A stretch of 64,000 nucleotides of DNA, from assembly GCF_009177065.1 (NCBI RefSeq), contig NZ_WEZF01000004.1, forward strand, positions 124,001 through 188,000. The letters run 5' to 3'. Made by a program: the position numbers and the translations under genes. Of the stretch, positions 16,599-27,279 are shown one piece after another. The first letter of the stretch is position 1; every line of letters starts with the position of its first letter. The stretch comes from Tautonia marina (GTDB taxonomy: Bacteria > Planctomycetota > Planctomycetia > Isosphaerales > Isosphaeraceae). The notes beneath the pieces are model-generated. The model was not told where the DNA came from, made no database searches, and was given only the letters and a program-made list of their open reading frames with translations.

Positions 16599-16688
<90 letters not shown>

Positions 16689-27182: not shown

Positions 27183-27279
27183 CGGGAGCGTATGGGAATC
27201 GAACCCACCGACGACCTGTCTCCAGGCCGCCCATCTGGTTTTGAAGACCAGGGCCGGCACCAGCCGTGCGTCCGCTCCC
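27183..27279 (-). tRNA. selC: tRNA-Sec (anticodon UCA)
   Basis: A 97-nt tRNA on the minus strand. The anticodon arm CTGGT-CTTCAAA-ACCAG places UCA (TCA in DNA) in the loop, complementary to UGA. The variable arm is 9 bp (GGCGGCCTG/CAGGTCGTC, with two G-U pairs) closed by a GAGA tetraloop, much longer than in tRNA-Ser. The T arm is GTGGG-TTCGATT-CCCAT. The acceptor stem GGGAGCG/CGCTCCC is extended by an eighth, mismatched G-A position, in place of the usual 8 bp. The D arm is GC-rich and can be drawn in two ways. CCA is not encoded. Size and features are those of bacterial selenocysteine tRNA. Confidence 0.92.

Follow-up and report, generated by a model that had tools for sequence, protein, structure and literature searches.

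The minus-strand locus described here is very probably the selC gene of Tautonia marina, a planctomycete with a complete selenocysteine (Sec) pathway, which would serve UGA codons in selD, in a selW-like gene and in a third gene, here called GCxU-NN, that has a conserved UGA with a SECIS hairpin and for which no cysteine version was found. The GCxU-NN family is presented, on the basis of sequence comparison, as a candidate for a new, Sec-only selenoprotein family. The locus lies in a stretch of 64,000 nucleotides that was analysed as a whole and is called the window below. The T. marina genome (G000 in the designations of loci) consists of 7.07 Mb in 80 contigs and is 97.8% complete; the window is part of contig C4. 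The coordinates of the features are listed in Table 1.

Table 1. Coordinates of the tRNA-Sec gene and its parts (positions in the window) and of the UGA-containing genes of T. marina (genome:contig:positions).
Feature	Position	Strand	Basis and remarks
tRNA-Sec (selC) gene, including G73 at 27183	27183..27279	minus	ARAGORN; RF01852, 66.5 bits; fold
UCA anticodon	27242..27244	minus	ARAGORN position 36; sequence
Long variable arm, 9-bp stem with GAGA tetraloop	27210..27231	minus	Minimum-free-energy fold, positions 49-70
Eighth acceptor place, 5' side, G	27272	minus	Partner A at 27191; sequence, 23-gene comparison
Eighth acceptor place, 3' side, A	27191	minus	Mismatched to G at 27272; sequence, 23-gene comparison
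Discriminator base G73	27183	minus	Sequence; GTTG read from 27183 on, CCA not encoded
selW and selD of T. marina	G000:C26:65172-65387 and 63918-64850 (L023)		
GCxU-NN gene of T. marina, 423 residues	G000:C3:356112-357380		Coding-potential UGA scan

ARAGORN called a tRNA-SeC(tca) on the minus strand at 27183-27279, and cmscan placed a match to RF01852 at 27184-27279 of the same strand with 66.5 bits, above the gathering score of 47 (E 2.4e-11 for the window), over the full length of the model (1-91). The original prediction, made from the letters alone, of a minus-strand tRNA-Sec is borne out by both programs, and its UCA anticodon is agreed on by ARAGORN and the sequence. The free energy of the single-strand fold is -53.1 kcal/mol; shuffled sequences average -38.7 (z -3.8), and none of 200 is as stable. 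In this fold the acceptor stem is 7 bp long, the T stem 5 bp and the variable arm, which is closed by a GAGA loop, 9 bp; the fold reproduces the variable arm and tetraloop that had been predicted, and fold and sequence match the predicted acceptor stem of seven pairs plus a G-A at the eighth place. The 8/5 length is kept, the eighth acceptor pair being this G-A. When the whole genome of T. marina was searched with RF01852, the locus was the best match. A second site exceeded the gathering score with 50.7 bits and is read by ARAGORN as tRNA-Ser(tga). The sole other tRNA in the window is a tRNA-Ser(gga) at 16599-16688, minus strand. The tRNA-Sec is confirmed and, in itself, ordinary.

The gene was compared with those of 22 other genomes (n = 23). 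G73, which lies directly beyond the 3' end of the model, is present in all 23 genes. The eighth place is U-A in 11 genes, C-G in 3, G-A in 5 and U-C in 4; a standard pair is absent there in 9 of the 23, including that of T. marina. With respect to the bacterial 8/5 type of RF01852, the T. marina tRNA is alike in the UCA anticodon, long variable arm, G73, 8/5 length and score, but has a G-A as the eighth acceptor pair, a feature of the whole genus. This eighth place also sets it apart from the deviant tRNA-Sec forms described in the accessible part of PMC5330540, which are of the 7/5 type with a bulge, carry an extra linker base or miss a linker base. G-A was found in all four members of the genus, whose tRNA-Sec genes are nearly identical, and in G008. 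Because it is common to all four genus members, the mismatch is regarded as an inherited variant, with parallels elsewhere.

Seryl-tRNA synthetase charges tRNA-Sec, SelA converts the serine to Sec using selenophosphate made by SelD, and SelB brings the Sec-tRNA to UGA codons with a downstream SECIS hairpin. Genome searches identified SelA (521.9 bits, cut-off 267.9) and SelB (367.2 bits, cut-off 242.25), both without internal stops and encoded by adjoining selB and selA genes on one strand of contig C3, as well as SelD (350.5 bits, cut-off 125, TIGR00476) on contig C26. The sel genes thus lie outside the window, as had been predicted, the tRNA-Sec being on a different contig, and SelA, SelB, SelD and tRNA-Sec occur together in the T. 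marina genome. Neither of the two outcomes that would have refuted the original prediction, a covariance score under the threshold or a genome lacking SelA, SelB and SelD, was obtained. A relic, that is, a gene decaying without function after the loss of Sec insertion, would be in keeping with the mismatch at the eighth acceptor place, with the lack of a Sec formate dehydrogenase among the matches listed for the genus and with a window devoid of a convincing selenoprotein. Such an origin is largely refuted and most improbable given that SelA, SelB and SelD score above their cut-offs, SelA and SelB with uninterrupted frames, that all four genus members have kept the near-identical tRNA-Sec, and that UGA stands in the open frames of selD, selW and the GCxU-NN gene.

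In a set of 40 genomes (T. marina and 39 relatives), 23 genomes have a tRNA-Sec at E <= 1e-9, and SelB and SelD exceeded their cut-offs in 24 genomes each. By these counts, the Sec trait is patchy, as previously stated for the phylum, but common in the 40 genomes. One genome, G029, has selW, selD, selB and tRNA-Sec on one strand within about 5 kb (L282, G029:C184:24635-29790). In another, the selB open frame extends over 1315 codons and is possibly a fusion or misses a stop (L024, G001:C38:50209-51285). Full sets of Sec-insertion genes without a 2-selenouridine synthase have been reported for Isosphaera pallida and Gemmata obscuriglobus (PMC4807772), and T. marina shows the same combination; that account, in its accessible part, names no family like GCxU-NN.

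Genes with an in-frame UGA were sought by scanning for UGA codons flanked on either side by sequence that looks coding in the same frame; the scan extended over about 1.72 Mb, or 24% of the genome, with the window included and a few kb counted twice. Of 15,598 UGA codons lying between open flanks and having a potential start, 138 were flagged. Three of them stood out, in selD, selW and the GCxU-NN gene; the other 135 were assigned, by eye only, to gene ends, same-frame neighbours or noise. Eight flagged codons fall in the window, and all eight, again by eye only, look like gene ends, adjacent genes or noise, which would agree, in a scan that recovers selD and selW, with the earlier claim that no gene of the window has an in-frame UGA. 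The selenoprotein genes predicted to lie elsewhere were located on C26 (selD and selW) and C3 (GCxU-NN). The selW gene was not found blindly, since the stretch of contig 26 had been chosen for selD. At least three UGA target genes are seen in T. marina (selD, the selW-like gene and the GCxU-NN gene), and the list is incomplete because the scan reached no more than 24% of the genome. After the scan, family searches were performed for selW and the GCxU-NN gene, besides selD.

Two other known kinds of target were considered. Sec formate dehydrogenase was rejected for T. marina, where neither of two FdhA-like matches at E <= 1e-60 has a TGA; no TGA was seen among the FdhA matches listed for the other three genus members, and FdhA with one TGA is present in six relatives (G005, G008, G013, G015, G017 and G019). 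One FdhA-like gene without UGA (L079, G000:C27) follows a frame with the motif SSCGVCG, which we take to be that of FdhD; the two are in one reading frame with a TGA between them. YbbB was found at E <= 1e-20 neither in T. marina nor in 24 other genomes of its family. The sole YbbB in the 40 genomes (L084, G039:C30:42725-43639) has an in-frame TGA, which was rejected as a Sec codon because it lies away from the intact Cys of YCWRGG; it is probably an error or a mutation.

SelD of T. marina contains one in-frame TGA, in DYANCAGUAGKL, so that its Se-binding loop reads CAGUAGK. Among 24 SelD (L018, L047-L069) the loop is CAGUAGK in 15, CAGCAGK in 2 (G017, G022), RAGCAAK in 6 and CGGCGAK in 1 (G031). 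A short selW-like frame with the motif CALUNY is situated just upstream of selD. With the UGA residue written as C, its product scored 66.9 bits against PF10262 (Rdx; cut-off 22.6) and 57.4 bits against TIGR02174 (cut-off 34.2), both matches spanning the TGA; in the genome search, the T. marina SelW was matched with 52 bits and 1 TGA. The SelW family was found in 25 of 59 genomes, with one TGA in 22 of the 26 matches listed. The T. marina members of SelW/SelT/SelH (PF10262 / TIGR02174) and SelD (TIGR00476) are ordinary, and only the close linkage of selW followed by selD is worth noting: in 14 of the 18 genomes having both, the two share a strand and selW precedes selD by no more than 1 kb, a count that includes G001, whose selW match is partial and without TGA. 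Those 14 genomes fall among the 15 whose SelD holds a TGA, and no Cys-form SelD beside selW was found among the 24 SelD genes. The selW match of G001 (L284, G001:C39:93486-93617) covers model positions 28-72 and perhaps represents a damaged gene.

As SelD is itself encoded by a UGA gene and neither a Sec FdhA nor YbbB was found in T. marina, the Sec machinery could in principle be retained solely for SelD. There is a precedent of SelD as the single selenoprotein, reported in YbbB-containing species in the accessible part of PMC1794560. The presence of two further targets, the SelW-like UGA gene and the GCxU-NN family, makes a machinery that serves only itself very improbable, and with about 24% of the genome scanned, others may exist.

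The GCxU-NN gene encodes a protein with the motif GNPLGCTUNNG and, as judged by eye, an N-terminal hydrophobic, signal-like stretch. In the 59 genomes, nine matches were obtained in eight genomes. Eight of the nine hold exactly one TGA, at 30-100% identity with the copy of T. marina included; a second copy, in G031, carries Arg instead of Sec. Cys directly precedes Sec in three distant members. The genome_contigs collection, in which each of 84,980 species is represented by a single genome, was scanned with a four-sequence alignment as query and peptide patterns in which the Sec place was left out. This yielded 83 relatives, of which 80 were kept; by their titles nearly all belong to Planctomycetota and Verrucomicrobiota, and they include Limnoglobus roseus PX52 with its complete genome. 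A TGA stands at the Sec place in 80 of 80 loci, and 79 are free of any further stop within the match, L274 having a second TGA. In a profile search of the phylum, the family was detected at E <= 1e-10 in 101 of 392 genomes; 131 of the 143 matches listed cover the site, and 123 of the 131 have a TGA within them. The Sec position was readable in 28 of 29 phylum loci that were fetched, and all 28 have a stop there (TGA according to the profile search). No relative was found in viral contigs. No conserved gene neighbours were seen in the 70 of the 80 loci examined, in which the largest recurring cluster comprises 12.

The eight site-covering phylum matches without TGA have neither a Cys at the place nor the preceding Cys. 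In these sense-codon relatives (L316-L323), Cys and Sec are lost together, giving for example GTGD, GSTS, GATS or GLPD, and in one further relative, L173, the Cys is kept and Arg occupies the Sec place. All of them may be non-redox paralogues; from the eight relatives without Cys or Sec at the site it follows that the fold has uses that need no redox chemistry there. A Cys form of the family was found neither in the 80 loci, nor in the 28 phylum loci read, nor in the eight sense-codon relatives. This is unusual because nearly all selenoproteins have Cys homologues, according to the accessible part of PMC13188914. By the rule stated there, a family in which no Cys homologue appears among the loci read could be one whose UGA is not a Sec codon, because it stems from a sequencing error or a pseudogene, or because it is bypassed or translated as a different amino acid.

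An ungapped alignment that starts at the UGA shows a 6-bp hairpin common to 82 GCxU-NN sequences; its loop starts 18 nt after the UGA and has an invariant G at its second place. Pairing is present in 95.3% of cells (74 distinct rows), five of the six pairs show changes on both sides, and there are 82 double-change cells. Covariation amounts to 0.638, a value that 0 of 500 shuffles reach, versus 0.361 in shuffles and at most 0.158 in slid controls. RNAalifold proposed the identical hairpin unprompted. A SECIS-like hairpin after UGA, which the original prediction had suggested looking for, is hence present and covarying in the GCxU-NN family. When the published SECIS energy rule is applied strictly, as a limit of -7.5 kcal/mol or lower for the uninterrupted stem by itself, 24 of the 83 hairpins are this stable, as are 6.5% of 1642 control windows. 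The published bacterial SECIS model, as given in the accessible part of PMC13188914, expects a G among the first two positions of the loop and a distance of 16-37 nt from the UGA; the hairpin agrees with it in its spacing and its loop G.

Purifying selection is observed on both sides of the UGA, with a dN/dS of 0.17 for the part preceding it and 0.11 for the part following it in one species pair (T. marina and G003). Seven of the 40 genomes tested for tRNA-Sec carry GCxU-NN, and all seven are within the 23 that have the tRNA (p ~ 0.013, calculated by hand from 23/40, close relatives not being independent); the eighth carrier of the 59 genomes, G051, is outside the tested set. In 50 carrier genomes, taken from the 80 of the genome_contigs scan, tRNA-Sec scored above cut-off in 40, and the ten without a match are, by their titles, nearly all MAGs. 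These computed observations argue against a UGA that is anything other than a Sec codon, which we consider clearly improbable: the identical single codon recurs in 80 of 80 records from different species, 79 of them without another stop, a covarying SECIS with an invariant loop G follows immediately 3', selection is purifying in both flanks, the gene goes together with tRNA-Sec, and a conserved Cys is positioned two residues upstream.

The fold was predicted with AlphaFold2 for the L. roseus member of the GCxU-NN family from 52 sequences (pLDDT 89.8, pTM 0.85). Residues 61-203 of the model match thioredoxin folds, best 3f9u (Z 12.7, rmsd 2.9 over 126), followed by 1sen (Z 11.9), 3ph9 (Z 11.8), DsbH 2ju5 (Z 9.9) and DsbD-gamma (8.8). 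The conserved Cys is at position 100 and Sec at position 102, immediately ahead of a predicted helix (103-110) that comes after a strand (88-93), which is the usual active-site place of thioredoxins. The usual motif of thioredoxins is Cys-x-x-Cys. The C-terminal half is a predicted all-beta domain, with a pLDDT of 90.0 when modelled alone. Foldseek retrieved no PDB match at E <= 0.001 for the whole model and none at that level for the C-terminal domain alone. Kinship of the C-terminal domain with a small outer-membrane barrel was rejected, the best Z of 7.1 not being taken as a relationship.

None of the Pfam and NCBIfam models matches the T. marina GCxU-NN member at E <= 1. Among eight members, PF13899 (Thioredoxin_7) matches one (E 0.0042; none for the T. 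marina member) and PF03190 (Thioredox_DsbH) matches two (E 0.01). PF13899, PF03190 and the DsbH / DsbD-gamma / AGR2-AGR3 folds resemble the GCxU-NN protein in its predicted N-terminal fold, with weak Pfam likeness in relatives, but identity is about 10-20%, and the GCxU-NN protein has Cys-x-Sec and an added all-beta domain. VPGUxxT (NF041383, NF041382), a thioredoxin-like (seleno)protein, shows a weak profile likeness to the N-terminal part of some relatives; with NF041383, the best of eight relatives scanned reached 20.6 bits against a cut-off of 275 (E 2.9e-4), and the T. marina member had 0 matches. The GCxU-NN motif, in contrast, is C-x-U before NN, and the C-terminal half is unmatched.

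A catalogue of selenoproteins dated May 2026 comprises 119 families (PMC13188914). The T. marina member was compared with those families that are modelled in Pfam or NCBIfam, families modelled only in CDD or PANTHER being outside the comparison, and no match was obtained; the catalogue was available in part. No description of the family was found in the titles or abstract openings of those papers that searches of the open-licence PMC literature listed. The family could be real yet known already from a paper or its supplement; for instance, a supplementary table of selenoprotein candidates exists for two planctomycetes (PMC4807772, accessible in part). We regard a previous description as somewhat unlikely, considering that the catalogue families with Pfam or NCBIfam models do not match the T. 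marina member at E <= 1, and that the best NCBIfam match of any relative remains at 20.6 bits with a cut-off of 275. The main selenoprotein search methods lean on Cys homologues, as stated in the accessible parts of PMC13188914 and PMC12013277, and a Sec-only family would tend to be missed by them.

The tRNA-Sec at 27183-27279 would accordingly be read in the model proposed here as serving the UGA codons of selD, the selW-like gene and the GCxU-NN gene. The GCxU-NN protein would be exported and composed of two domains, an N-terminal one with a predicted thioredoxin fold bearing Cys-x-Sec and a C-terminal all-beta one. It may act as a periplasmic or cell-surface thiol/selenol oxidoreductase by way of a Cys-Sec selenenylsulphide, and is annotated as a putative exported Cys-Sec oxidoreductase. 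For this protein we infer Sec insertion, export and catalysis.

A tRNA-Sec by itself was to be expected in this organism; the candidate Sec-only family is the thing worth following. GCxU-NN occurs in about a quarter of the sampled genomes of the phylum (101/392) and in many records of Verrucomicrobiota, and ordinary gene calling would truncate its genes at the UGA. On balance, it appears probable that Planctomycetota and Verrucomicrobiota possess an uncatalogued, exported Cys-x-Sec family of thioredoxin fold that is Sec-only, in which the loss of Sec takes the Cys too and does not lead to a Cys in its stead, and which is missed by searches for Cys/Sec pairs; it may be one of the main reasons for the retention of tRNA-Sec in many planctomycetes that have no Sec formate dehydrogenase. 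The family thereby provides a testable reason for keeping Sec in genomes that lack Sec formate dehydrogenase, which is usually what maintains the trait.
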